Below, piece after piece: positions 16,081 through 38,238 of a stretch of 53,394 nt of DNA. A program made the translations under genes and the position numbers. This stretch comes from Coriobacteriia bacterium (GTDB lineage: Bacteria > Actinomycetota > Coriobacteriia > Coriobacteriales > Atopobiaceae). Within the stretch, counting starts at the first letter, position 1. Every line of letters begins with the position of its first letter. The stretch lies in assembly GCA_030530145.1 (NCBI GenBank), contig JAUMVN010000016.1, positions 1 through 53,394 on the forward strand. The letters are read 5' to 3'. The notes beneath the pieces are model-generated. The model saw only the letters and a program-made list of their open reading frames with translations, did not search any database and had not been told where the DNA came from.

Positions 16081-18138
16081 ATGGCCCGCAAGCGCCCGCA
16101 CCATGGAAACACCCGCCGCGGCTCCGCCAAGGGGCCGCGCAAGCAGCGCCGCGCCATCACGGGTATCCTGCGCGTGCTGCGCCCGGGCTCGGCCACTGTC
16201 GAGACGGCCGAGGGCAGCTTCGAGGTAACCCGCTCGGGCGTCCACGAGGCCATGAGCGGCGACGAGGTCAGCGTCATTCTCGTCGGCGATAAGCGCACGG
16301 GCGCGAAGCGCGCCGTCGTCGACGCGGTGCTCAACCGCGCGACCCACAGCCTCCTCGGTCGGTTCGAGCTCGCGGGTCCGCTGGGCGCTGTTGTGCCGCT
16401 GGACAACCGCCTGAACCACGACTTCTTCGTGCTGCCGGAGGACAAGAGCCCCGAGCGGCTGGGCGTCGCGCCCGGGGACATCGTCGCGGCGCGCATCGTC
16501 GAGTACCCGACGCGCTACACGGCCGCGGTCGTGACCCTCGACCGGCGCGTGGGCTCGGCCGACGAGCTCGACATGAACATCGAGTCCGTCATCGCGAGCC
16601 ACGGCATCGCGACCGAGTTCAGCCCTTCCACGCTCGAGCAGGCGCAGGCGGTGCGCGCCGACGTGGCCGGCGCGCTCGCATCGGATGCGCGCCGCGTCGA
16701 CCTGCGCGACGTCATGTGCGTGACCATCGACCCGGCCGATGCCCGCGACTTCGACGACGCGGTCGGCGCGCGCGAGCGGGAGGATGGCGGCTTTGACCTC
16801 GATGTTCATATCGCCGACGTCACGCATTACCTGCCGTGGGGGTCGTCCATGGACCTCGAGGCGCGGGCGCGGACCTGCTCGGTGTATCTCGTGGACCGCG
16901 TGGTGCCGATGCTTCCCGAGCGCCTGTGCAACGACGTGTGCTCGCTGCGCCCGGGAGAGGACCGCCTGGCCATGACGGTGCGGATGCGCCTGGACGCGCA
17001 GGGCCGCGTGACCCGCGCGAAGGCGTGCACGTCGGCCATCTGCTCGAACGCGCGGCTTTGCTACGACGACGTGGACGCCCTGCTCGAGGGCCGGACCAAG
17101 GCGGCTGACCTGCATATGGTTGATCCGGCGGAAGCCGAGGGGGCGGCGCGGATGCTTCGGGTCCTCGACCGGATCCGCGACCTGCGCGAGCGGATTCGCC
17201 GCAGCCGCGGTGCCATCGACTTCGAGACGCGCGAGGCCAAGGTCGTGCTCGACGCCGACGGCCATCCGACCGGGGTGCGCGTACGCAACCGGACTCGCGC
17301 CACGGGCCTGGTGGAGGAGGCGATGCTCCTGGCTAACGAGTGCGTGGCAAAGATCCTGGCCGACTCCGAAGTCCCGGCTGCTTATCGCGTGCACGAGCAG
17401 CCGTCGCCCGACGACCTCCGCGCCACGATCGCGCCGCTCGACGAGCTCGGGCTGCTCGAGGCCGGCGACGCCGCTGCGGTGCTCGCGGGGGAGCCGCGAG
17501 CGATTCAGGCCGTCCTCGCCCGCGCCCGCGGCACCCGTGGCGAGTACCTGGCGAACACCCTGCTGCTCCGTGCGCAGAAAAGGGCCATCTACCTGCCGCA
17601 TAACGACGGTCACTATGCTCTCGGCGCGCAGGCGTACTGTCACTTCACCTCGCCGATTCGCCGCTATCCCGACGACATCGTGCACCGCGCGCTCAAGGCG
17701 CACCTTGCCGGCAAGGACGGCTGTCCCGAGCAGCGCGCGGTCGAGCGCGTGCTCCCGCAGCTGTGCTCGGATTGCTCGAGCATGGAGCGCACCGCCGACG
17801 CGGCCGCTCGCGACTCACAGAAGGTGAAGATGGCCGAGCTCTATGCCGAGCGGATCGGCGCGCGGGAGGCCGGCGTGGTCTCGGGCTGCGAGCGGTTCGG
17901 CCTCTTCGTCTGCCTCGACGATACCTGCGCCGACGGGCTTCTTCCCGTGCGCGACCTCGGCAACGAGTGGTTCTCCTACGACGAGAAGCGCATGACGTTG
18001 ACCGGCGAGGCCACGGGCGAGGTTTGGGGGCTGGGCCGGCGCGTGGTCGTGGAGGTGGCGGCGGTCGACATCCCGCGCGGTCGCATCGATTTCCGGCTTC
18101 CGAAGCGGGCGTCAGAATATAGCGCGTGTATTGTGTAA
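16081..18138 (+). CDS. rnr: Ribonuclease R (RNB-family 3'-5' exoribonuclease)
   Basis: Processive exoribonuclease that degrades structured RNA and aids tmRNA quality control. 685 aa. A basic N-terminus (residues 1-25) and cold-shock-like region are followed by the RNB domain with DPADARDFDD at 218-227 and a C-terminal S1 domain (residues about 600-680, GVVSGCERFGLFVCLDD). ATG 16081 follows AAGAGGAGAGAAACG; the frame is open upstream but without a start signal. The leader at about 15976-16065 is extremely C-rich and G-poor in places. smpB lies two genes downstream, a sensible partner for RNase R in trans-translation. Confidence 0.93.
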   Translation: MARKRPHHGNTRRGSAKGPRKQRRAITGILRVLRPGSATVETAEGSFEVTRSGVHEAMSGDEVSVILVGDKRTGAKRAVVDAVLNRATHSLLGRFELAGPLGAVVPLDNRLNHDFFVLPEDKSPERLGVAPGDIVAARIVEYPTRYTAAVVTLDRRVGSADELDMNIESVIASHGIATEFSPSTLEQAQAVRADVAGALASDARRVDLRDVMCVTIDPADARDFDDAVGAREREDGGFDLDVHIADVTHYLPWGSSMDLEARARTCSVYLVDRVVPMLPERLCNDVCSLRPGEDRLAMTVRMRLDAQGRVTRAKACTSAICSNARLCYDDVDALLEGRTKAADLHMVDPAEAEGAARMLRVLDRIRDLRERIRRSRGAIDFETREAKVVLDADGHPTGVRVRNRTRATGLVEEAMLLANECVAKILADSEVPAAYRVHEQPSPDDLRATIAPLDELGLLEAGDAAAVLAGEPRAIQAVLARARGTRGEYLANTLLLRAQKRAIYLPHNDGHYALGAQAYCHFTSPIRRYPDDIVHRALKAHLAGKDGCPEQRAVERVLPQLCSDCSSMERTADAAARDSQKVKMAELYAERIGAREAGVVSGCERFGLFVCLDDTCADGLLPVRDLGNEWFSYDEKRMTLTGEATGEVWGLGRRVVVEVAAVDIPRGRIDFRLPKRASEYSACIV

Positions 18139-18142
18139 CCTT

Positions 18143-18232
18143 ATTTGAACTTGCCGAGTAGCCGGGCCAAATCAAGGTGGTTTCCCTGCTTAAACGGTCC
18201 AAATAACGAACGGATACTCGGCAAACTCAAAT
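18143..18232. repeat. Hairpin element D (inverted-repeat element with GAGTAGCCGG core)
   Basis: Left arm ATTTGAACTTGCCGAGTA (18143-18160) and right arm TACTCGGCAAACTCAAAT (18215-18232) pair at 16 of 18 positions. The interior begins GCCGGGCC, so it carries the GAGTAGCCGG motif also seen in elements B (31968) and C (33893). It starts five bases after the RNase R stop. The rest of the 313-base gap to 18452 holds TGAAGCGCTTCA (18275-18286), a perfect palindrome of LacI/cre type, and no gene that I can support. Confidence 0.6.
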
Positions 18233-18451
18233 TAAGATACGCAATATGCGCAATCTATTTTGGAAGCAGCAATATGAAGCGCTTCAAATTACCGCCGCCG
18301 CACGCAAATAGGCGACAGAGCCTCGCTCGGCCTTCTCCGAGCCCTTTGCGCGGCCCTTTCTGGCTTAGCGCGGGCGCGAGCTAAACCGCGGCGGGGTATC
18401 ATCAGCAGAGTGAAAGCACCGATTTCGCCGGCCCGGCCGGCTGGAGGACCC

Positions 18452-24179: not shown

Positions 24180-24236
24180 CCGCGCCGGCGCTCGGCCAGC
24201 CTTCCCGCGGCCTGACTCGCGAACGAACACGAACGC

Positions 24237-24340
24237 GTTCGCGAACGTTCGCGAACGCCAGCTGTCGGTTCGCGAACATCGGCTTCCCGTTCGCGAACAT
24301 CGGCCGCCCGTTCGCGAACGCCAGCCACCCGTTCGCGAAC
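24237..24340. repeat. Tandem array of 21-bp units with GTTCGCGAAC core
   Basis: GTTCGCGAAC begins at 24237, 24247, 24268, 24289, 24310 and 24331. The last five are spaced exactly 21 bases. The linkers vary (ATCGGCTTCCC, ATCGGCCGCCC, GCCAGCCACCC and GCCAGCTGTCG) while the palindrome is invariant. Spacing of two helical turns fits a phased protein-binding array or a replication/segregation-type iteron; CRISPR is excluded because the spacers are 11 bases and related to each other. Confidence 0.85.
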
Positions 24341-24466
24341 GCTCGCGAATGCCGTCGTCCAACTTTGATCGCCCGGATAGAGTCGCGTCGGAACCAAGCG
24401 CTCGTTGCGAGAGGCGGGCGTCGTCGGGAGCGGCCCCACTCGTTCTGCCTGTATAAATTGGCTACC

Positions 24467-27415: not shown

Positions 27416-28633
27416 ATGGAAGACATCAAGCAGGAAACGACCGGCCCTGGCGCGGACGCCGTCCAGGAACCCGTTCTCGCCGCAACCGTTGCCGACGCCA
27501 AGCCCTTCTCCCCGAGTTCCCTCCGCGAGCTCCTCGACCACCTGGACTCCGAGGGCATCACTGATTTTCGTCGTTACCGCGAGGTCCGTAAGTTCATGAA
27601 CTTCAAGGCTCGGGAAAAGCATCTTCCCATCTCGGGCTGCTTCGAGCTCACGCCGCTCTGCAACCTCGACTGCAAGATGTGCTACGTCCACCTCAGCGCA
27701 GCGCAGCTCCACGGCGCGAAGCTCCTCCCCGTCGAGACCTGGAAGGACATCATGACCCAGGCGGTCGACGCCGGCATGATGTATGCCCGTCTCACGGGCG
27801 GTGAGTGCACAACCTACCCTGGCTTCAAGGAGCTCTATTTACACCTCGCAAATCTGGGAGTTGAGGTTACTGTCCTCTCCAACGCTGTTCTCATCGACGA
27901 CGTCATGGTTGATTTCTTTATTGCCCATCCCCCCGCAGGCGTGCAGGTCACGCTTTACGGTGCAAGCGAAGAGGCTTATGAGCGTGTGACCGGCCACCGC
28001 ATGTTCGCCCGCGTGCTGGGCAATATCCGCCGTATGCGCGACGCGGGTGTCCCGGTGACCATCGCCGTGACGCCCAACGCCTTTATGACTGACGGTCTTG
28101 AGGTTGTGCGTCTACTTCACGAAGAGGGCCTTCCCTTCAACATCAACCCCGGCATCATCGAGCCCAGGGAGGAGACCGGCCGAAAAATCGAGGATGCTAG
28201 CCTCGACGCCTACGTCGATATGCTGCGCCTTCAGTGCGAGCTCGAGGGCAGGCTGCCCGAGCCCGAGTGCGAGCCCGACGAGTTGCCCGACGTAGCTGAC
28301 GGCTGTGTTGAAGGCGAGGCCCCGCGCGGGGTGCGCTGCGGTGCCGGCCGCAGCTCGTTCTCGGTAGGCTGGAAGGGCGGGATGCTTCCGTGTAACACCT
28401 TCCCGTGCGAACCGGCAAACGTGGTCGAGCTAGGCTTTGCCGAGAGCTGGCGGCGTACAAACGCGCAGGCGCTGGACTACCCGCTCCCCGTCGAGTGTGA
28501 GGGTTGCTCCTACAAGAACGCCTGCAAGCACTGTGTTTCCGAGCATGCAAACGACGCGGAGCCGGGCCACGCCAGCCCGGCCGTCTGCCAGTGGGGAAAG
28601 CGCATGGTCGCGGAAGGTATCTTTAAACGGTAG
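27416..28633 (+). CDS. Radical SAM/SPASM peptide-modifying enzyme
   Basis: 405 aa. The AdoMet cluster motif is CNLDCKMC with Cys82, Cys86 and Cys89. The C-terminal SPASM region supplies further iron-sulfur ligands: Cys308, Cys326 (GGMLPC), Cys331, Cys361, Cys364, Cys370, Cys373 (CEGCSYKNACKHC) and Cys391. GGE at 128-130 follows the usual radical SAM strand (YARLTGGECTTYPGF). The N-terminal 70 residues are extra and may contact the precursor. SPASM enzymes of this shape make thioether, C-C or ether crosslinks in peptides; with two-Cys substrates a sactionine/ranthionine-type bond is the first guess. Starts four bases after the peptidase stop. Confidence 0.9.
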   Translation: MEDIKQETTGPGADAVQEPVLAATVADAKPFSPSSLRELLDHLDSEGITDFRRYREVRKFMNFKAREKHLPISGCFELTPLCNLDCKMCYVHLSAAQLHGAKLLPVETWKDIMTQAVDAGMMYARLTGGECTTYPGFKELYLHLANLGVEVTVLSNAVLIDDVMVDFFIAHPPAGVQVTLYGASEEAYERVTGHRMFARVLGNIRRMRDAGVPVTIAVTPNAFMTDGLEVVRLLHEEGLPFNINPGIIEPREETGRKIEDASLDAYVDMLRLQCELEGRLPEPECEPDELPDVADGCVEGEAPRGVRCGAGRSSFSVGWKGGMLPCNTFPCEPANVVELGFAESWRRTNAQALDYPLPVECEGCSYKNACKHCVSEHANDAEPGHASPAVCQWGKRMVAEGIFKR

Positions 28634-28698
28634 CGCACAGCCCCTACGTTCCTGGCGTAAAGTAGAAAAACCCAGTAAGCCGGCTTGGAGGAAGAAAC

Positions 28699-28848
28699 AT
28701 GGAGAAGAAGACGTACGAGGTTCCGGTCGCGGAGCTTGTTAAGTTCAACTACAAGGACCAGGTTGTTGCCACGAGTAATTGCAACATGGGTTATGAGGGC
28801 AACACTTCGAATCCTGAGGGCTGCAGCCCGGTTGGGTACACCAACTAG
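28699..28848 (+). CDS. RiPP precursor peptide 3, two-cysteine core
   Basis: 49 aa, start after CTTGGAGGAAGAAAC. Leader MEKKTYEVPVAELVKFNYKD then QVVATS aligns with precursors 1 and 2 after one inserted residue. The core NCNMGYEGNTSNPEGCSPVG has two cysteines with 13 residues between and is rich in Asn, Gly and Pro. It stands between the radical SAM gene and the HPr-kinase-like gene, apart from the other two precursors, so the cluster has gained peptides at two places. It is too short for default gene callers. Confidence 0.82.
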   Translation: MEKKTYEVPVAELVKFNYKDQVVATSNCNMGYEGNTSNPEGCSPVGYTN

Positions 28849-28858
28849 CGCCGCCTCT

Positions 28859-29932
28859 ATGACCCTCTTCTCGCAACTCGAGCAACAGATCGACGCGACG
28901 CCCGTTGCCGAGGCGCCCGCCGACGACGAGCTCACCCTCGCGGCGGACACCCGTGAGGTGCTCGTCTACCGCACGGTCGACGGCGGCTGGTTCTACCGCC
29001 TCAAGCTCGGCAACCCGCCCGCCGGCCTGCTCGTCAGCGGCGACTATGCTGACCTGCGCCGCGTTCCCGGGGAGCCTACCCCCGACGGCGCCATCGACCG
29101 CTCGCGCTTCCTTCTTCGCACGGCCTTCGAGTGCCGCTTTGCCTACGAGGGCATCGTTTCTCTCCACGGCGCGTGCGTCCAGAAGGATGGCATGGCGTTC
29201 GTCTTTACCGGCCGCAGCGGGGCGGGCAAGTCCACGCGCGCCTTCGCTTGGGCCGACCCCGCGGGCCTGGGTGCCGAGTTCATCTCCGGCGACCGTCCCG
29301 CCGTCCGTCTGGAGGCCGACGGCGGCGCCACGGCCTGCGGCGTGCCCTGGGACGGCAAGGAGCAGATCTTCCGCGACGTCGAGGTGCCGCTCAAGTGCAT
29401 CCTCGATGTCCGCCGCTCGCCGGCCAACTACGTCCGCCGCCTCTCCGCGCGCGAGGCCCAGAGCGTCCTGACCCAGCAGGCGTTCGTCCCCATGTGGGAC
29501 ACCGACGCGGCCGTGCTCGCGCTCGCGAACGTCCGCCGCCTGACCAAGGCGGTGCCGGTATTGCGCGTGTTCTGCGGAATGGGCCCGGAGGACGCCCAGG
29601 TCATTTACGATATTCTCGTCAACCATCCCGAGCTCATAAAGCCCGCAGAAGAGGAAGAGCAGCTCATGCAGATCAAGGAAGGCTTCACCCTGCGCAACGT
29701 CCTGGACGAGCACATGGTCATGCCCACTGGCGAGAACATCGGCAAGTTCGCCGGCACCGTCGTCCTCAACGACGTGTCCGCGTTCGTGTATGAGCAGCTG
29801 AAGATGCCCGTCTCGCGCGACGACGTCCTCGCGGCCATTCTTGCCGAGTACGAGGTGGACGAGGAGACCGCGGCCAAGGACCTCGACGCGCTGCTGGCCC
29901 AGTTCCGCGAGCTCGGCCTCATCGAGGAGTAA
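28859..29932 (+). CDS. HPr-kinase-like P-loop protein fused to a PqqD (RRE) domain
   Basis: 357 aa. Residues about 80-260 resemble HPr kinase: SLHGACV near 101-107, Walker A TGRSGAGKST at 117-126 and FISGDRPAV near 141-149. Residues about 270-357 are a PqqD-like winged helix: KEGFTLRNVLDEHMVMP, GTVVLNDVSAFVYEQL, EVDEETAAKDLDALL. PqqD domains are RiPP recognition elements that bind leaders. The kinase-like part may phosphorylate the precursor or only bind nucleotide. The start at 28859 lies 10 bases after precursor 3 without a clear ribosome site, so coupling is likely. The PqqD part could also start alone at the Met at 29668. Confidence 0.85.
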   Translation: MTLFSQLEQQIDATPVAEAPADDELTLAADTREVLVYRTVDGGWFYRLKLGNPPAGLLVSGDYADLRRVPGEPTPDGAIDRSRFLLRTAFECRFAYEGIVSLHGACVQKDGMAFVFTGRSGAGKSTRAFAWADPAGLGAEFISGDRPAVRLEADGGATACGVPWDGKEQIFRDVEVPLKCILDVRRSPANYVRRLSAREAQSVLTQQAFVPMWDTDAAVLALANVRRLTKAVPVLRVFCGMGPEDAQVIYDILVNHPELIKPAEEEEQLMQIKEGFTLRNVLDEHMVMPTGENIGKFAGTVVLNDVSAFVYEQLKMPVSRDDVLAAILAEYEVDEETAAKDLDALLAQFRELGLIEE

Positions 29933-29950
29933 CGGGAGCAGCCTGCCCGC

Positions 29951-31684
29951 ATGAAGACGCTCCTCAAAGCCATCTGGGAAAGCGACCGGCGCGCGTTTCT
30001 CACCATCCTCGGGTGGAACATCGCGGTGTCCGCGCTCTCGGGCGTGAGCACCGTGATGCTCATCCCGTTGCTGAACATGCTGCAGATAGGCAACAGCCCG
30101 CTGCCGGGTTGGTTCACGGCGCTGCCGTACGCCGCGCAGGTGGGCATGCTGCTCATCAGCTATATCGCGCTGGTCACGGTGAAGGCGGTTCTCTCCCGGG
30201 CGCTGACCATTCGGCAGACCGCCTTCATCGAGCAGACGGGCATGGACATGCGCGAGCGGCTCTACCGCACGGTCTCCAGCGCCAGTTGGGAGACGCTCGC
30301 CGCGCAGAAGGACGCCGAGCTCATTAATCTGTTTGCCAACCAGTGCAACCAGGTAAGCTACGGTATCTCGTCGGTGATCGGTTTTCTCTCGAGCATCGTG
30401 TCCGCCGCGGTGCAGCTGGCCATCGCGCTGTACATGAGCGTGCCGGTGACGGTGCTCGTGTGCGCGATGGGTGTCTGCATGCTGGGCGCCTTCGTGCCGC
30501 TGCGCAAGAAGTCGCACGAGTACGGCGAGGAGTTCATCGCCATCAACCGCGACTTCTACGGCGAGCTGCAGAACCAGCTGGCGAGCGTGAAGGAGGTCCG
30601 CGCGTACAGCGTCGAGGCCGAGCACGCTGAACTGTTCGAGCGAATCAGCGAATCTTTTATGACTGCGCGGATGAAGTACACGCGCCAGAGCTCCGTGCCG
30701 GGGCTCGTGTACTCCCTGACCGCCGCGGTGATGATCTCCATCGTCTACCTGGTCTGCACCCTCGGCATGAAGGTCGAGACCGACCGCTTGGTCGTGCTCG
30801 TGTACGTGTTCGCGCGTCTGTGGCCCGTGTTCTCCGGGTTCCAGGGACAGATCCAGAACATCGATAGCTGCGTGCCGGCGTACGAGAAGCTCGTCGAGGC
30901 GCAGAAGGCCATGGCGCCCGAGGACGAGGTCGAGGTGGAGGACGTGGACTACTCCGGGTGGCGCGAGCTGCGCTTCGACAACGTGCGGTTCGCTTACCAC
31001 GACTCCGACGAGGACACGCTGCGCGGCGTCTCGTTCGGGCTGGCCCGCGGGGAAAAGGTGGCGTTGCTGGGGCGCAACGGCGCGGGCAAGACCACGGCAG
31101 TTAACCTCTTGATGGGATTCCTGCTGCCGAGCGGCGGCGCGATCGAGGTCGACGGCGGCGCGCTGACCCGCGCGAACATCGCGTCGTGGCGCCGACAGGT
31201 GGGCTATGTGCCCCAGGACCCGCTGATCCTCAACGCCTCGGTGCGCGAGAACCTTAAGCGATTCCACCCCGACGCGACCGACGACGAGCTGGTGGACGCG
31301 CTGAAGAAGGCGTATGCCTGGGGCTTCGTGAGCCGGATGCCCGAGGGGCTGGATACCGTCCTCGGGGACCGCGGCCTGCGGCTTTCCGGCGGCGAGCGCC
31401 AGCGCATCGTGCTGGCGAGGGTGCTTCTGGGCCATCCGAGCATGATCGTTCTGGACGAGGCCACGAGCGCGCTCGACTACGAGAGCGAGACCGCGTTCCA
31501 CGACGTCATCGCTTCGCTGGGGGAGGAGTCCGCGGTGGTGCTCATCGCCCACAGCCTGGCGACGGTTCGCATGGCCGACCGCGCCGTGGTCCTGGCGGAT
31601 GGCGCGGTCGTCGAGCAAGGCGCCATTGACGAGTTGGTCGCGGATCCGAAGAGCTATCTCGCCGGCATGACCGAGCCGGCGTAG
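29951..31684 (+). CDS. ABC transporter, fused membrane and ATPase domains, probable peptide exporter
   Basis: 577 aa. Residues 1-300 carry about six membrane helices; the ATPase has Walker A GRNGAGKTT at 374-382, signature LSGGERQR at 478-485 and Walker B MIVLDEATS at 498-506. There is no N-terminal C39 peptidase, so it should export peptides already cut. It starts 18 bases after the HPrK-PqqD gene and ends the cluster; a weak hairpin GCGGGC-TAC-GCCCGC lies at 31692-31706. Confidence 0.9.
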   Translation: MKTLLKAIWESDRRAFLTILGWNIAVSALSGVSTVMLIPLLNMLQIGNSPLPGWFTALPYAAQVGMLLISYIALVTVKAVLSRALTIRQTAFIEQTGMDMRERLYRTVSSASWETLAAQKDAELINLFANQCNQVSYGISSVIGFLSSIVSAAVQLAIALYMSVPVTVLVCAMGVCMLGAFVPLRKKSHEYGEEFIAINRDFYGELQNQLASVKEVRAYSVEAEHAELFERISESFMTARMKYTRQSSVPGLVYSLTAAVMISIVYLVCTLGMKVETDRLVVLVYVFARLWPVFSGFQGQIQNIDSCVPAYEKLVEAQKAMAPEDEVEVEDVDYSGWRELRFDNVRFAYHDSDEDTLRGVSFGLARGEKVALLGRNGAGKTTAVNLLMGFLLPSGGAIEVDGGALTRANIASWRRQVGYVPQDPLILNASVRENLKRFHPDATDDELVDALKKAYAWGFVSRMPEGLDTVLGDRGLRLSGGERQRIVLARVLLGHPSMIVLDEATSALDYESETAFHDVIASLGEESAVVLIAHSLATVRMADRAVVLADGAVVEQGAIDELVADPKSYLAGMTEPA

Positions 31685-31719: not shown

Positions 31720-31877
31720 GTGGCGCATAAACTCTGACTTTTCGCACTATAAAATCCAGACCGTCGAGTAGTTATGCGTTCCGCGTTGACGTTTGCCCAG
31801 TTGAAAGGCTACGCCAGGCCTACCGCTACTTGGCGGTCCCCATTTTAAACAGCAAAAAGTCAGAGTTTATGCACCAC
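31720..31877. repeat. Hairpin element A (158 bp, long inverted repeats)
   Basis: GTGGCGCATAAACTCTGACT and on to 31742 pairs with 31855-31877 at 22 of 23 positions. Pairing continues inward (TATAAAATCCAGACCG against CGGTCCCCATTTTAAA) and again as AGTAG/CTACT. The loop contains GTTTGCCCAGTTG, also found in elements B and C although their outer arms differ. The 568-base gap 31685-32252 holds a weak terminator, A, then B; no gene is seen. Confidence 0.8.
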
Positions 31878-31967
31878 GGAACCCGACTCGGAGAGCTTTG
31901 GGCCCGTCGTTCTTTTAGGATGGCTCCATCGCTCCTGTTTTGGGGCGTGGTCTGGGATGTCTGTTAA

Positions 31968-32111
31968 CCAAACTCCTGAGAATGTACGATTGAAATCCGA
32001 CGGGGCGAGTAGCCGGCCTCAAATCAGCCGCATTTGCCCAGTTGGCCATTCGCCAAAAGGGTGGGGCTACTAAGCCACTCGCCAGTCAATCGTACATTCT
32101 CAGGAGTTTGG
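31968..32111. repeat. Hairpin element B, upstream of AbiE
   Basis: Perfect 26-bp arms, 31968-31993 (starts CCAAACTCCTGAGAATGTAC) against 32086-32111. Inside, GGCGAGT pairs with ACTCGCC, and AGTAGCC can instead pair with GGCTACT. The loop has ATTTGCCCAGTTGG. Conserved flanks (about 31930-31967 and 32112-32135) are shared with element C, so the duplicated unit is about 200 bp. Confidence 0.85.
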
Positions 32112-32252
32112 GTTTCGCAGGCTCGCGCATCGGCGCCCTTGGTTGCTGCGGGGAGAACACATTACGTTGCTAGTGCTCAATCGTCTCCAATTCGTCTATA
32201 GCTAAACTGACGCATATTGTACAAACTAACGAAAACCATTAGAATATGCAAT

Positions 32253-33071
32253 ATGCATCAGTATATCGAACATATCTCCAGAGGTTCAGTGTCCGCGCCG
32301 GAGCTGTCTGATTGGGCCCTCTCGCACGGCGTGACCTCCCTCACCACGGAAGACGTATCGCACCTATGCGGCGTGCCGACGAACCAGGTCCCGCAGCGCC
32401 TTGCGCCGCAGCGCCAGAGGTCGCGCATTTTCTCGCCGGCAAGAGGGCTGTGGGTGCCCGTGCCGGCTGAGTATCGGACATGGGGCGCGCCCGATCCGCT
32501 TCTCTACATCGACGACATGATGCGGCACCTTGGCATGGGCTATCTGGTCGGTTGGCTCACTGCGGCCGCGCGCCACGGTGCGAGCCATCAGGCTCCGCAG
32601 ACATTCCAGGTTGCCACATCGAGGAACCTGAGAGACCGCGACCTCGGCCGCTCGCGCGTGCGGTTCTTCGCGCGCTCTTACGTTGTGTCCGCCCCTTGCT
32701 CACAGCGCGATCTCGCAAATACAGGCGCGCGCGTGGCTACGTCGGGGATGACTATGCTCATGCTGGCCGCCGACCCCGGTTTCTGCGGTGGGATGGGTAA
32801 CGTGGCAACGGCAATCGTGGAGCTCTCCGAGGAGAACCCTGGCTATGTGAACGAGCTGCTGGCAACGGCCGCCTTCTTTGCCGACGCTGCTCCTCGCCGC
32901 GTCGGGTACATTCTGGAAGAGTTCGGCGGCGGTGCACCGGACAGTCTTCGGGAATATTGCGCCGCGCTTACCAGCCAGCCGTCGTATCTCTCGCCGACCT
33001 CGCCCAAGGCCGGCGCTCTTGATCGCGCTTGGAACGTGGTCCTCAATGAGGAGGTTGACCCCGACCTATGA
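32253..33071 (+). CDS. AbiEi-type antitoxin of a type IV toxin-antitoxin system
   Basis: 272 aa. N-terminal winged helix (ISRGSVSAPELSDWALSHGV, then HLCGVPTNQVPQRL) and the AbiEi domain with YIDDMMRHLGMGYLVGWLTAAARHG. It represses the pair and blocks the AbiEii nucleotidyltransferase toxin. ATG 32253 is the likely start (MHQYIEH); a TTG at 32217 is in frame but lies in AT-rich promoter-like sequence. The stop overlaps the toxin start (ATGA). The pair sits between hairpin elements B and C. Confidence 0.88.
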   Translation: MHQYIEHISRGSVSAPELSDWALSHGVTSLTTEDVSHLCGVPTNQVPQRLAPQRQRSRIFSPARGLWVPVPAEYRTWGAPDPLLYIDDMMRHLGMGYLVGWLTAAARHGASHQAPQTFQVATSRNLRDRDLGRSRVRFFARSYVVSAPCSQRDLANTGARVATSGMTMLMLAADPGFCGGMGNVATAIVELSEENPGYVNELLATAAFFADAAPRRVGYILEEFGGGAPDSLREYCAALTSQPSYLSPTSPKAGALDRAWNVVLNEEVDPDL

Positions 33072-33841
33072 TCAGAAGAAGCGACATCGTTCAGTGGAGC
33101 GTCGCGCACCCGTGGCAGAACGAGGACCAGGTCGAGCAGGATTTGTTGCTCTCGCGCGCCATGATCGAGATCGCGAACGACCCGCTGTTGGGAGAGGAGC
33201 TCGTCCTACGGGGCGGCACGGCCTTCCATAAGCTTTTCCTGCCTGAGCCTTACCGCTACAGCGAGGATCTCGACTTCGTGCGCACCACGGGCGGCGGCAT
33301 TGGAGACGTGATGAAGCGACTTACCGCGCTGGGGCAGGAGCTCGGCTTCGACGTCCGCACCAAGATGGGCATGTACCCGAAGGTCATGTGGCGCTTCGCC
33401 TTTGCCGACGGCGTGCCGGGAAAGATCAAGCTCGAGATAAACACCTTCGAGCGGTCGCCCATGATGGAGCTGACTGCGCACGCGCATTCGGTTGAGAACG
33501 GCTTCTACACCGGCCGCGCCCTCATTCCGACGTTCCAGCCCGAGGAGCTGGTGGCCACGAAGCTCCGTGCCCTCTATCAGCGCAAGAAGGGCCGCGACCT
33601 GTACGACCTGTGGCTCGCGCTGACCGTGCTCGAGCTGGACCCGGAGAAGATTGTGGCCGCCTTCCCGGCGTATCGTCCCGAGGGCGTGACCGGTGAGGAC
33701 GTCCTGGCGAACTTGCGCCTGAAGCTGCAGGATCCAGAGTTCCGCAACGACGTGTGCGCCATGATTAAAGTTGGCGCGCCAGCCTACGACCCGGATGCGG
33801 CGGGCGAGCTGGTGGCCAACGAGCTCCTGGCGAAAATCTAA
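33068..33841 (+). CDS. AbiEii-type nucleotidyltransferase toxin
   Basis: 257 aa. DNA polymerase-beta-like nucleotidyltransferase: LRGGTAFHKLF at 47-57, then YSEDLDF at 64-70 with the catalytic acidic pair, KLEIN near residue 118 and the later KLRALYQRKKGRDLYDLWLA. Toxins of this family stop growth by adding nucleotides to tRNA or related targets and give abortive infection. The ATGA overlap with the antitoxin gene supports one transcript. Confidence 0.9.
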   Translation: MIRRSDIVQWSVAHPWQNEDQVEQDLLLSRAMIEIANDPLLGEELVLRGGTAFHKLFLPEPYRYSEDLDFVRTTGGGIGDVMKRLTALGQELGFDVRTKMGMYPKVMWRFAFADGVPGKIKLEINTFERSPMMELTAHAHSVENGFYTGRALIPTFQPEELVATKLRALYQRKKGRDLYDLWLALTVLELDPEKIVAAFPAYRPEGVTGEDVLANLRLKLQDPEFRNDVCAMIKVGAPAYDPDAAGELVANELLAKI

Positions 33842-33892
33842 TGCGAGATGGGCCCCGCTCCCGTTTTGGGCGTGGTCTGGGGTGTCTGTTAA

Positions 33893-34036
33893 CCAAACTC
33901 CTGAGAATGTACGATTGAAATCCGACCGGGCGAGTAGCCGGCTCCCATTCGCCTGCGTTTGCCCAGTTGGCTGTTCGCCAACGGGGCGGAGCTACTCGGT
34001 CGGTCGCCAGCCAATCGTACATTCTCGCGACTTTGG
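33893..34036. repeat. Hairpin element C, downstream of AbiE
   Basis: Left arm 33893-33917 is identical to that of element B. The right arm 34012-34036 has three changes (CTCGCGACTTTGG instead of CTCAGGAGTTTGG), so it is slightly decayed. Same orientation as B, same core (GGGCGAGTAGCCGG, GTTTGCCCAGTTGG, GGAGCTACTC) and same flanks. Confidence 0.85.
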
Positions 34037-34127
34037 TTTCCGCAGGCCCGCGCATCCGCACCGTCGGCCGGAGGCCACGTTAATTTCGCAGCTCGTGAGT
34101 GGGATTCGGTTTGAATCGAACGACCCC

Positions 34128-34485
34128 CTACGGCTCCCGACCTTGTTGCTCGGCTGCTTGCAGCAGCAATTTGGAAATCGCCGCAATGTCCGATTCTGAA
34201 AACCTGCCGATTCGGCCTGCCGTTCCAAAGTAGTCTGCAGGAATTGCGGCGATGCGGTCAATACGCGCAATTGACGGCTTTACGAGCCCGGCCTCTTTCC
34301 AGTTGGCCAGATGGTAATCGTGCTCCATGCGCAGTTTGTTCATCGCGCTTGTGACCATCATCACAAGTGTGTCGTCGGCTGTTGCATCAACGATGATGAC
34401 GGGCCCGAACTTGTAGCCCTTTCCCCCCTTCGTAATTGAACCTGGCGTGCCAGATATCCCATCTTTGCGGCCCGGCTTCATTCAT
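34128..34485 (-). pseudogene. MazF/PemK-family toxin, frameshifted in a G6 tract
   Basis: The ATG at 34485 opens MNEAGPQRWDIWHARFNYE, the conserved MazF/PemK start, but after GGKG the frame runs out. The rest of the toxin (YKFGPVIIVDATADDTLVMM to the end at 34128) is in the next frame. The switch lies at six G (plus-strand C6, 34423-34428); five would restore one 118-residue reading frame. An ATG at 34481 reads into the second frame but with an unrelated N-terminus. Either phase variation, a pseudogene or a sequencing error. The start overlaps the antitoxin stop. Confidence 0.78.
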
Positions 34486-34753
34486 CGTAGTCGTCCCAGT
34501 CTGCGGGCAAAATAGCAACGCCGTTTGAGTCGATGGGGGCGTGATAGGCCATCGAGGCAATCTGGCTGTGGCTGGGCATCTCGGGGCGCATCTCAAAAGG
34601 CAGGCCACCAACCTCTACGGACTTAACGAGGAAAACGTTGATGGCGTCAGAGAGGCTCAGGCCCCATTTGGAATAAACCTCTGTGGCGCGTTCTTTGATA
34701 TCTGCGCTAGTGCGGAATTTGCCTTCCGTCTTACGCGTGGCTGTGGCAGGCAT
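34478..34753 (-). CDS. RelB/DinJ-family antitoxin
   Basis: 91 aa. Ribbon-helix-helix RelB/DinJ landmarks: TEGKFRTSADIKERATEVY, KWGLSLSDAINVFLVKSVEVGGLPFEM. ATG 34753 is preferred to a TTG at 34765. RelB/DinJ antitoxins normally pair with RelE/YafQ toxins; here the partner is a MazF/PemK-like protein, a mixed pairing. An inverted repeat CACTCT/AGAGTG (34774-34799) upstream may be its operator. Confidence 0.85.
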   Translation of the reverse strand: MPATATRKTEGKFRTSADIKERATEVYSKWGLSLSDAINVFLVKSVEVGGLPFEMRPEMPSHSQIASMAYHAPIDSNGVAILPADWDDYDE

Positions 34754-34773
34754 TGATGACCCCAATCCGGACC

Positions 34774-34799
34774 CACTCTGTACCCTATTTGAGAGAGTG
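34774..34799. promoter_or_regulatory. Inverted repeat upstream of DinJ-like gene
   Basis: CACTCT (34774-34779) and AGAGTG (34794-34799), 20 bases start to start, just upstream of the antitoxin gene on the minus strand. The rest of 34800-35130 shows no gene that I can support, only short unconvincing open frames. Confidence 0.4.
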
Positions 34800-35159
34800 T
34801 TCTACCCAAAGGCTTGACCTGAATGCGCTTTGAAGGAAGACGGGCCGCCCGAACGACACGTTGACAAGATGAGGCATGCGGGGTGATTGACTCGAGGCGG
34901 TGCCCGGAAGCTCAACGAGGCAGATCAATTGTGACTGAGCGTCAGCTATTGGCTTGCCAGGCAGGTGGCAACCGATGTTCATCTGAGTGCCGACGACTGC
35001 CGGGAAAGATGGAAAACCCAGCAAAGCCGGTCTTTTCCGTTGTTTGGCGACCAGGTCGCCCCCGAGCTCCCGCCGCGCGTCCACGCCTCCGCGTCAATCG
35101 CTCGCCAGCGAGACAAATCTAAAAAACTAGAGCGCATCCGCAAGCGGACACGCCCTTAC

Positions 35160-35180
35160 AAAACCCCGAAAGGGGTTTTT
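35160..35180 (+). terminator. Strong plus-strand terminator without a visible gene
   Basis: AAAACCCC, GAAA loop, GGGGTTTTT. Directly before it TCCGC-AA-GCGGA forms another hairpin. It would end a transcript coming from about 34800-35150, where no gene is apparent. Confidence 0.8.
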
Positions 35181-35280
35181 CATCCAACCGAATTATGGCT
35201 GACCAGCGGTTCGTTCGTCAACCGATTGCGCATCAAACTACAAGTGCCGGGGTGCTATGGGGGCCCTATACAAAACTGGA

Positions 35281-35325
35281 GCGGAGCCACGAAGTGGTTC
35301 CGCCCCTACAAACCCGAAGGTTTTA
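35281..35325. terminator. Second hairpin pair, terminator of the Abi gene
   Basis: GCGGAGCCAC (35281-35290) pairs with GTGGTTCCGC (35294-35303); then AAACC-CGAA-GGTTT (35310-35323) touches the stop codon of the minus-strand Abi gene. It repeats the layout of 35132-35180, including the CGCCCYTACAAA linker. Confidence 0.6.
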
Positions 35326-36354
35326 CATCTGAGAATATTCTGCGCTCGATGGCACCCAGATGTCAACAAGTTTGAAGAAGAAATCGAAGAACGACGTTAT
35401 GGTCGGGTTCTTCTGAAAGATGGCGCGGACGTCCTTCCACGCGGACCGAAGGCTCCCGAGCATCCTTGCGTGTCTTTCTGTGGTGTGGGGGCGCGTGCAG
35501 AACACGCTGTCGGCGAAGAGGGTTTCAGCGATTTGAGTGATCCGGAGGTTTGAGAGCTTGTCTCGCCTGGATTTGGTGCGCCTCATTCCGTGTTCATTGA
35601 GAGAATCGGTAACAAGCCTGCTGGTGATCCAGTCGCCCCGCTTCGACGCCTTGCCGACGCCGTTAAGTATGCAACTATTGTGCGCGCATGCGTTGCGAAG
35701 CGCCCGGACGCTCTTGAGCACGTAGTGCCGCTGCAGCATCTCTCCGTCACCCCATCGCTCGGCGCAGAACAGGTAGAAGTCGGTAAAGACGCGGAACTCG
35801 ATGGTCTCCAGGAATACCCACGCGGGCATCCTGTCCAGGTGCTCGTCCGTGTCGTAGTGCTTGGCGATGAGGTCGCCTGAGTATTCGTCGTGAGTGTCGC
35901 CATCAGCCCCTCGGGCCTTTAGCCCTCCCTCGATATGGTTGCGACCCTTATGGTTCAGCTTGATGTGCAAGTAATCCAGAACTATGCCATAGCCGTCTTC
36001 GCCGTGCTCCTCGCATGCGTCTAGGATTTCGATGCGTGCGAAATGCTCGATATCCAGGGCTATGGAGAGGAGACATGCCCTGAGCATCCTGTCGAGCGAC
36101 GAGAGCGCTCGCAGGTGCTCGAAATCGAGCCCCGCATACTCGCCGGCATGGGCGCCGGCGGCCTTTATGGGAAAGAGCTTACGGTAAGAAGAGGCTCTAA
36201 GAAGGTTGTTTGCCGTGCGCAGGTAGTCGGCGGCTTCCGCTTCTGAACAGAGCTCGAACGTGACGCCCCTGGACTTGAGGTGGGCGATTTGCTCCGAGAC
36301 AGCGAGCGTTGGCTTGGGTCCCCGGCTCACGTTTTCTGCGAGCGCGTCTGTCAT
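35323..36354 (-). CDS. Abi_2 (AbiD/AbiF)-family abortive infection protein
   Basis: 343 aa. Abi_2 family features: an opening TLAVSEQIAHLKSRGVTF, then RASSYRKLFPIK, LDRMLRACLLSIALDIEHFARI, and the HEPN-type RNase motif R220-NACA-H225 within SVRALRNACAHNSCILNG. Members are thought to be RNases activated during phage infection. ATG 36354 follows GGGAGGAGGCCCGAG, a strong site. It is divergent from the capsule genes and closes the defence island. The 273-base gap to 36628 holds the palindrome GCGGCTAAGCCGC (36583-36595) and no gene. Confidence 0.88.
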   Translation of the reverse strand: MTDALAENVSRGPKPTLAVSEQIAHLKSRGVTFELCSEAEAADYLRTANNLLRASSYRKLFPIKAAGAHAGEYAGLDFEHLRALSSLDRMLRACLLSIALDIEHFARIEILDACEEHGEDGYGIVLDYLHIKLNHKGRNHIEGGLKARGADGDTHDEYSGDLIAKHYDTDEHLDRMPAWVFLETIEFRVFTDFYLFCAERWGDGEMLQRHYVLKSVRALRNACAHNSCILNGVGKASKRGDWITSRLVTDSLNEHGMRRTKSRRDKLSNLRITQIAETLFADSVFCTRPHTTERHARMLGSLRSAWKDVRAIFQKNPTITSFFDFFFKLVDIWVPSSAEYSQM

Positions 36355-36627
36355 CTCGGGCCTCCTCCCAACCGATGATTCGTGGATGCGGATTATACGC
36401 TGCGGAGGGGACAGAAATGCCTGCTTGGCGGCGGGGTGGCGCTCCTGTGCTCGCCCTGCGTGCCTGCGTCTCCGTCGCACCCGCCCCGCTGCGCCATCAG
36501 CCCGAGGAGAATTGTTGCAATTCCTTCCCGAAAGCTCAAAAGGCCCGCCGCGACGCTTAAGCTGGTAAGAGCAAATTTCGCTGCGGCTAAGCCGCCGCTG
36601 ACCGCGTAAAACCTGGGACGGAGCTGC

Positions 36628-37446
36628 TTGAACATCGCGGAAGGACAACTGACGCTCGATGCCGCCGGGACGGCGCAGCCCTTCGCTGACGCCATGTTCG
36701 CCGAGGCGGCCGCACCCGCGCCCTCGTCTGCCGCTGGCGAGAAGCCCGTCTCCCTCACGGCGGCGGAGGCCGACGGCATGAGCGACCCCAACCCCGACCC
36801 CGCCACGGAAGCCGCGGCCGAGCGCCTGTACGGCCGCCGCATCGTCTACCGCTTCCTCAAGCGCGCGTTCGACATCGTTTTCAGCGCAGCCGCGCTCGTC
36901 TGCCTGAGCTGGCTCTACCTCATCGTGGCCATCGCCATCAAGCTCGACGACCCGGCCGGCCCCGTCTTCTTCGTGCAGGAGCGCGTGGGCCGCAACGGCA
37001 AGCGCTTCCGCATGTGGAAGTTCCGCAGCATGTGCTCCGACGCCGAGGCCAAGCTCGCGGCCCTGCAGGCGCAGAACGAGAAGGACGGCCCCGTCTTCAA
37101 GATGGCCGAGGACCCGCGCGTCACCCGCGTGGGCCGCTTTATCCGCAAGACCTCGATCGACGAGCTGCCGCAGTTCGCGAACGTGCTGCTCGGCCACATG
37201 TCCGTGGTCGGTCCGCGCCCCGCGCTGCCCAGGGAAGTGGCCGCCTACACCCCCCGCCAGCGCCAGCGCCTGCTGGTCAAGCCCGGCATAACCTGCTACT
37301 GGCAGACCCGTCGCAACCGCGACTCCATCAGCTTCGACGAGTGGGTCGCCCTGGACCTCCTCTACATAAAGAAGTGTTCCATCTGGACGGACTTCAAGTT
37401 GATCATCCAGACCATCGGCGTCGTGCTGACCGCGCAGGGGAGCTAG
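36628..37446 (+). CDS. Polyprenyl-phosphate sugar-1-phosphate transferase (initiating enzyme)
   Basis: 272 aa membrane enzyme that loads the first sugar phosphate onto undecaprenyl phosphate. One membrane segment (about residues 82-104), then the bacterial sugar transferase domain: PVFFVQERVGRNGKRFRMWK, KFRSM, FIRKTSIDELPQ, VGPRPALPREV and PGITCYWQ. It lacks the four-helix N-terminal domain of WbaP and so is of the small PglC/WcaJ C-terminal type, with a 65-residue acidic N-terminal extension. TTG 36628 follows GGGACGGAGCTGC. First gene of the polysaccharide locus. Confidence 0.9.
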   Translation: MNIAEGQLTLDAAGTAQPFADAMFAEAAAPAPSSAAGEKPVSLTAAEADGMSDPNPDPATEAAAERLYGRRIVYRFLKRAFDIVFSAAALVCLSWLYLIVAIAIKLDDPAGPVFFVQERVGRNGKRFRMWKFRSMCSDAEAKLAALQAQNEKDGPVFKMAEDPRVTRVGRFIRKTSIDELPQFANVLLGHMSVVGPRPALPREVAAYTPRQRQRLLVKPGITCYWQTRRNRDSISFDEWVALDLLYIKKCSIWTDFKLIIQTIGVVLTAQGS

Positions 37447-38238
37447 GTGACCCCTTTGGCAAATGCTGCGTTCCAGAAAGCGCCTAACCGCTTTCCGATA
37501 CTCAATACCTACGTAAATGCCCTTTCGCTTGACGAGACGGTCGCCGAGGTTGAGGGCATCATCGCCCGCGGCGTTCCGACGCAACACGTCGTGGTTAACG
37601 CTTCGAAGGTCAACCTTATGGAAGCCGACCCTGAGCTAGCCAAAATCGTAAACGCCTGCCCGCTCATTAACGCCGACGGCGCCTCCATCGTCTGGGCGGC
37701 AAAGAAACTCGGCATTCCTCTTGCCGAGCGCGTTACGGGCATCGACCTGTTTCTCCGCCTGGTTGAAGTCGCCGCCGAGAAGGGCCACGGCATCTACCTC
37801 TTCGGGGCCAAGGAAGAGGTTGTGGCCAAGGTCAAGGCCATCTTCGAGGAGAAGTACCCGGCCCTTCGAATTTGTGGATATCGCAACGGGTACTTCGCCG
37901 AAGCGGACGAGCCCCAGATAGTCTCCGATATGGCTGCCTCTGGCGCGGACATGATGTTCGTGGCATTCAGCTCCCCTAAAAAAGAGTACTGGGTTCACAA
38001 GTATCTCGACGCGATCGGTATTCCCTTCGTGATGGGCGTGGGCGGCAGCTTCGACGTGGTCGCGGGCGTTACTGACCGAGCTCCTAAATGGATGCAAGAC
38101 CACGGCCTCGAATGGTTTTATCGTTTTGCGCAGGAGCCCGGCCGCCTTTGGAAGCGCTACACCATCGGCAACGCGAAATTCGTGTTGCTTACCCTCAAGT
38201 ACAAATTCACGAAGAAAGGCGAGCGACAGAATGGTTAA
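37447..38238 (+). CDS. WecG/TagA/CpsF-family glycosyltransferase
   Basis: 263 aa. Family landmarks: QHVVVNASKVNLMEADPELA, INADGASIVWAAKKLG, RVTGIDLF, GIYLFGAKEEV, FVAFSSPKKEYW and MGVGGSFDVVAG. WecG/TagA transfer ManNAcA or ManNAc to a lipid-linked acceptor, which fits the ManNAc pathway genes just downstream. GTG 37447 directly follows the previous stop, behind GGGGAG. Overlaps the next gene by eight bases. Confidence 0.92.
   Translation: MTPLANAAFQKAPNRFPILNTYVNALSLDETVAEVEGIIARGVPTQHVVVNASKVNLMEADPELAKIVNACPLINADGASIVWAAKKLGIPLAERVTGIDLFLRLVEVAAEKGHGIYLFGAKEEVVAKVKAIFEEKYPALRICGYRNGYFAEADEPQIVSDMAASGADMMFVAFSSPKKEYWVHKYLDAIGIPFVMGVGGSFDVVAGVTDRAPKWMQDHGLEWFYRFAQEPGRLWKRYTIGNAKFVLLTLKYKFTKKGERQNG

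Follow-up and report, generated by a model that had tools for sequence, protein, structure and literature searches.

Constant-centre hairpins with changing but complementary arms: an apparently undescribed class of intergenic elements in Atopobiaceae

We think it somewhat probable that four inverted-repeat elements, A to D, belong to a non-autonomous, MITE/REPIN-like class of short (ca. 79-160 bp), non-coding, intergenic inverted repeats that is widespread in Atopobiaceae. All four lie in a 53,394-nucleotide stretch of DNA from a Coriobacteriia bacterium of this family (contig JAUMVN010000016.1), which we analyzed at its full length and refer to as the window. On our best reading their architecture is new, combining a constant asymmetric centre, CRTTTSCSCAGKT (here in its TTTGCCCAGTTG subtype), with arms that change quickly but stay complementary to one another. 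This suggests a class of small DNA elements, mobile or read by a protein, that has so far gone undescribed. The evidence lies in their copy number, the central position of the core, the compensation between arms, the intergenic location and strand neutrality of the copies, and the different terminal repeats carried by REP-associated tyrosine transposases (RAYTs); what we infer is that the elements move and that their centre is recognised by a trans-acting factor.

Several general features of a MITE are present: the elements have inverted ends, are short and non-coding, and occur in many copies, with several arm families per genome that each number from several to dozens of copies. In the mechanism that we propose, the element would be copied or inserted by a factor whose gene lies elsewhere in the genome and which would read a cruciform or single-strand hairpin that has the constant motif at its centre or apex. 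Any arm sequence would work provided that both arms match, which would explain why unrelated arms are found on a common centre.

Table 1. Coordinates of the hairpin elements and associated features in the window
Feature	Position	Strand	Details
Element A, inverted repeat	31720..31877	.	Arms 31720-31771 / 31826-31877, 52 nt, 81% complementary; own-genome arm family 3 (..ACTCTGACTTTTCGCAC..), same arms in L005, L008, L022 and others
Element A, central core	31792..31803	+	Exact TTTGCCCAGTTG; extended form CG-core-A
Element B, inverted repeat	31966..32111	.	Arms 31968-32014 / 32065-32111, 47 nt, 81% complementary; arm family 1 (ACCAAACTCNNGAGAATGTACGATTGA), upstream of abiEi
Element B, central core	32033..32044	+	Exact TTTGCCCAGTTG
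Element C, inverted repeat	33891..34038	.	Arms 33891-33938 / 33991-34038, 48 nt, 79% complementary; arm family 1, downstream of abiEii
Element C, central core	33958..33969	+	Exact TTTGCCCAGTTG
Element D, diverged member	18113..18262	.	Arms 18113-18164 / 18211-18262, 52 nt, 75% complementary; inner arms GAGTAGCC..GGATACTC
Element D, diverged central motif	18183..18194	-	TTTAAGCAGGGA; exact dyad centre 18187.5
204-bp duplicated block, left copy	31939..32142	+	Element B and outer flanks; 84% identical to 33864-34067
204-bp duplicated block, right copy	33864..34067	+	Element C and outer flanks
abiEi antitoxin gene	32253..33071	+	Pfam AbiEi_1, E 7e-20; start codon uncertain
abiEii toxin gene	33068..33841	+	Pfam AbiEii, E 4e-31

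A first-pass annotation of this DNA had described A, B and C as long hairpins built on one core. All three are genuine inverted repeats at the places it gave, with arms of 47-52 nt that are 79-81% complementary (Table 1), and their folding z-scores as ssDNA range from -6.4 to -10.8. The window contains three exact matches to TTTGCCCAGTTG, one in each of these elements and none besides. The arms of A and B do differ and yet stay complementary, as had been claimed; because B and C share one arm family and a 204-bp duplication, however, this finding covers two arm families rather than three. The common core likewise stood. In element A, GAGTAG does not pair with the GGCTAC copy; it is matched in the right arm by CTACTTG. 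Element D, put forward as a further relative, qualifies through its hairpin structure, but it is larger than had been indicated and the 12-mer TTTGCCCAGTTG is absent from it. Its folding is weaker than that of A-C (z = -3.35), and its central motif is a weak match, differing from the variant core TTTCCGCAGGT at three positions. Within the window, GAGTAGCCGG alone is not significant, with seven matches at up to one mismatch versus 4.3 expected.

The genome-wide search that had been recommended recovered a family of cores. The genome of origin (2.47 Mb in 57 contigs) contains 25 exact copies of TTTGCCCAGTTG versus none of a reversed control pattern, and its only congener contains 11. Across Atopobiaceae, TTTGCCCAGTTG is matched in 90 of 140 genomes, with almost no matches for the reversed control, and copies per genome range from 0 to 103 (103 in G042, 37 in G038, 30 in G045; 8-29 exact cores in each genome of the genus that we call g34). 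When the sampling was extended to more of the class, a single genome stood out beyond this family: G220, from a neighbouring family, has 12 copies, every one of them in a hairpin. In reference genomes and viral contigs, a 14-mer of the core matched a scatter of unrelated taxa, which is what chance would produce, and phage and plasmid records yielded no match to the core. The variant pattern CRTTTSCSCAGGT, counted with the original 12-mer excluded, is enriched over its reversed control in 130 of the 140 Atopobiaceae genomes (G042, 107 versus 2; G130, 45 versus 0, among others); the loci examined include several hairpins (L601, L605, L607) and many sites inside coding sequence. Broad enrichment of the core across nearly the whole bacterial family is thus seen in counts and in a modest sample of loci. 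Fetched loci were mostly chosen via the exact 12-mer, which makes conservation of the core in that set partly a matter of construction; copies recovered by their arms alone and the variant-core search serve as unbiased checks.

It is the core, and not the arms, that unites these elements across genera. The flanks of 231 sites fall into 97 groups (<50% identity), of which 48 are clear hairpins; most of the non-hairpin groups are matches that arose by chance in low-copy genomes. The 48 hairpin groups have only ca. 17 positions in common, RCR-TTTGCCCAGTTG-RS (positions -3 to +14), and pairing peaks with the dyad centre at core position 7-7.5. Arms score 15.6 on average against their own partners and 8.0 against arms of other groups, with a score of at least 15 reached in 46 of the 97 flank groups versus 0.9% of crossed pairs. 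The off-centre exceptions (family 2 of the genome of origin, and G038) bear an extra insert on one side, and the stretch between core and arms is frequently unpaired. Unrelated arm families coexist even within the genome of origin, among them ..GAGAATGTACGATTGA.., ..TCGAGATTCTGCGTG.., that of element A and ..AAAGTTCGACTTTGCGGCA..; the congener carries further families, and other genera have yet other arm sequences. The family-1 arm occurs as 29 half-sites genome-wide, nearly all of them paired ca. 107-112 bp apart.

Families 1 and 3 of the genome of origin also keep an inner pair, GAGTAGC..GCTACTC. This GAGTAGC contains GTAG, which like CGTC can tag one end of a REP palindrome, and is missing from arm families A and B of genus g34, both of which are exactly 79 bp long and have the core at one fixed offset. 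Copies of the latter two families found by their arms alone often centre on TTTCCGCAGGTC, TTTGCCCAGGTA or TTTGCGCAGGTC, and the core is accordingly broader and more degenerate than the 12-mer, being best written as CRTTTSCSCAGKT. Several arm families start with TGCACMAAA, including a 152-bp repeat of g34 that is described below.

Covariation of the arms was measured in an alignment of 33 sequences from g34 families A and B. Standard pairs occupy 91.6% of the arm cells, and 14 of the 21 arm pairs have changed on both sides. The covariation score is 0.528, compared with 0.183 after shuffling (0 of 500 shuffles as high) and 0.10-0.17 when the partners were slid. Much of this covariation is the difference between families A and B; some pairs have also changed on both sides within a single family (8/72 in A; 4/76 and 5/75 in B). 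The prediction that arms would covary once many copies were aligned, which had been set beforehand as a refutation test, therefore survived. The first-pass annotation had taken compensating arms and a conserved core to suggest selection for structure. Both features are there, but selection and the copying of one arm from the other look alike in these data. Copying is central to a version that we regard as improbable, in which the constant centre (13-17 nt) is the true element and an as yet undescribed enzyme reads it at the hairpin apex, making, lengthening or mending the palindrome around it, perhaps through snap-back synthesis; any local sequence could then serve as an arm, and copying, not selection, would keep the two arms complementary. 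Insertion into pre-existing hairpins, which should leave flank complementarity specific to each copy, is unsupported in g34 families A and B and in the 152-bp repeat, and a weak signal of such complementarity appears within family-1 arms alone.

Nearly all copies examined are intergenic. According to a crude gene caller, the core runs with tandem genes in 17 cases and against them in 16, and copies lie in 20 convergent and 9 divergent gaps, counts taken without a genome-wide baseline. Foremost among the rivals, though in our estimate unlikely, is a host DNA-architecture site, in which the dyad and constant centre are bound or cleaved by a chromosomal protein (gyrase or a nucleoid protein) and selected near gene ends; gyrase binding or cleavage has reportedly been proposed for the BIMEs of E. 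coli. A constant centre in otherwise unrelated elements, core variants enriched in nearly every Atopobiaceae genome, the excess of convergent over divergent gene ends and the random orientation all agree with such a site, and host selection could also keep both centre and arms. However, a double-strand binding site needs no matched arms, the arm families with near-identical copies look amplified, and a copy number that runs from 0 to 103 between genomes also counts against it. Third in our order, behind the ordinary MITEs considered below and with a distinctly small chance of being right, is a structured RNA whose apical loop is conserved (a small RNA, a terminator or a stabiliser of mRNA ends). 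A conserved loop on a compensating stem is the classic signature of an RNA, and some G001 copies resemble intrinsic terminators whose loop contains the core. That neither strand is preferred nevertheless argues against a role inside host transcripts; given this random orientation, a DNA-level site is favored over the structured mRNA element that had been offered as one option. In addition, most families lack a T-run, the core-to-arm stretch is often unpaired, and Rfam gave no gathering-score match in the window and, on seven element loci, only a neighbouring tRNA and sub-threshold chance models (microRNA).

Several signs point to mobility: there are several recent-looking arm families of fixed length, tandem arrays of elements occur in two genomes, and different elements fill the same intergenic site in two species. 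Copies are also lost by deletion or recombination, and one locus lost 2.3 kb between two copies, whose arms were joined. Many copies are orthologous between different species, and some copies must therefore be old. Comparison of relatives, as had been suggested, gave no clean empty site; the candidates are deletions inside or between copies, the best of them a deletion within a copy. Target-site duplications showed no consistent signal in four families, where short ones could be eroded. Among the three options originally offered, the non-autonomous mobile element is still the best one, albeit with neither a clean empty site nor a target duplication to its credit. The second-ranked rival, which we also consider unlikely, is that these are ordinary MITEs: insertion sequences with internal deletions, their arms being the TIRs of several DDE-type transposons with a coincidentally common centre. 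Fixed-length arm families with abrupt ends, the TGCACMAAA start of several of them and a size in the typical MITE range fit this well. Beyond the missing target-site duplication, though, a genome-wide search in the genome of origin with the family-1 arm found no transposon-sized pair, different transposons have no reason to share a centre, and in a deletion derivative one would expect the centre to be conserved least. Least probable, and already largely refuted, is that the elements are REPINs moved by RAYTs, which are HUH enzymes. Inverted pairs, tandem arrays, the lack of target duplication and GTAG inside several families are all as expected of REPINs, and RAYT-type transposase genes are present in 95 of the 140 Atopobiaceae genomes. 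Yet when 19 RAYT loci were taken from genomes that carry the elements, neither the core nor any tested arm lay next to the gene at any of them, and most of these 19 genes have clear terminal repeats of another kind (e.g., TGAGACAAAGGGACAG..). The only Y1 transposase of the genome of origin, a RAYT, is bordered by inverted sets of 35-bp GGGGACAC repeats (L309, 955-1021 and 2108-2203), and no Y1 transposase was matched in G120, which carries 25 cores. RAYTs were thus rejected as the driver both by co-occurrence and by gene flanks, and no other candidate driver turned up in the searches made.

The proposed class can be set against known systems. Integron attC sites are likewise variable, imperfect hairpins in which pairing is kept rather than sequence. 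They keep outer 7-bp boxes and not a central motif, whereas a central motif is kept here, and the genes between element pairs are ordinary chromosomal ones, on which ground the idea of gene cassettes was rejected. Bacterial MITEs resemble our elements in size, inverted ends, intergenic spread and lack of coding capacity; they differ in that we found no target duplication or parental insertion sequence and in that unrelated arm families here share one centre. To our knowledge, the known short palindromic repeats of bacteria keep their ends while the middle drifts. REPINs are the closest in lifestyle, sharing with our elements (as do BIMEs) short intergenic inverted pairs, hairpins, many copies, tandem clusters, genome-specific sequences and no target duplication. 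Their ends (REPs) are conserved and their spacer less so (Bertels and Rainey 2011, PMC3116915); the present elements, in contrast, keep the centre across genera rather than the arms (48 groups) and have no association with RAYTs. The TIR repeats of TIRYTs are moderately abundant inverted-repeat families in species without GTAG REPs, and they have GGGGWSAS-like motifs and flank a transposase gene (Di Nocera et al. 2013, PMC3733652). Our elements do neither, but the flanks of the Y1 transposase in the genome of origin do have a TIRYT-type arrangement, and GGGGACAC fits the GGGGWSAS type of that study. Other Atopobiaceae RAYTs have palindromic ends such as TGAGACAAAGGGACAGTCCCTTTGTCTCA.

A middle that is fixed across a bacterial family, with arms that are replaced wholesale and yet matched, points to a new recognition mechanism for hairpin or cruciform DNA, and 48 arm families on one centre form a natural library for testing such recognition. 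The proposed class would also account for an abundant repeat of this group of Actinomycetota that is missing from the annotation searched; in the open literature that we searched, we found no description of elements with this core.

A few further observations concern the neighbourhood of the elements and related repeats. The abiEi-abiEii operon (32253-33841) is flanked by both copies of the 204-bp block, each with its hairpin, and in G114 and G119 the start of an abiEi-like gene is also close to such an element. A PemK/MazF-like toxin gene (- strand) and a gene for an Abi_2-domain protein lie beside abiE (34128-37587), and the whole region is likely a defence or toxin-antitoxin island. Element A sits downstream (3') of an ABC-transporter gene. 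A radical SAM protein, a PqqD-domain protein and an ABC transporter are encoded in a row at 27416-31684, resembling a modification and export cluster for ribosomal peptides (RiPPs). Elsewhere in the window, clustered TTCGCGAA palindromes form nested inverted repeats (24229-24358). Variant cores CATTTCCGCAGGTC and CGTTTCCGCAGGTAGA occur just 3' of apparent tRNA 3' ends in L589 and L604 (around position 1500), which come from two different genomes. The core resembles the tRNA D-arm, a likeness that we put down to chance. At L037 (ca. 1525-1650), a family-1 element has its arms in reversed order (GAGTAG outside) around the variant core GCGTTTGCCCAGGTAAC and looks as if built from the junction of two elements. 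Genus g34 also carries a separate repeat of ca. 152-156 bp (L407, 4082-4241; further copies in L408, L528, L540 and L545-L557), for which Rfam has no family. It is well conserved, with dozens of copies per genome and compensatory arm variants, and has the ends TGCCCAAAATTTGCGG..CCGCAAATTTTGGGCA and the conserved interior GAGTACGA..CCGCAGGTAGGGAAATGGCACC..GGTGATACT.
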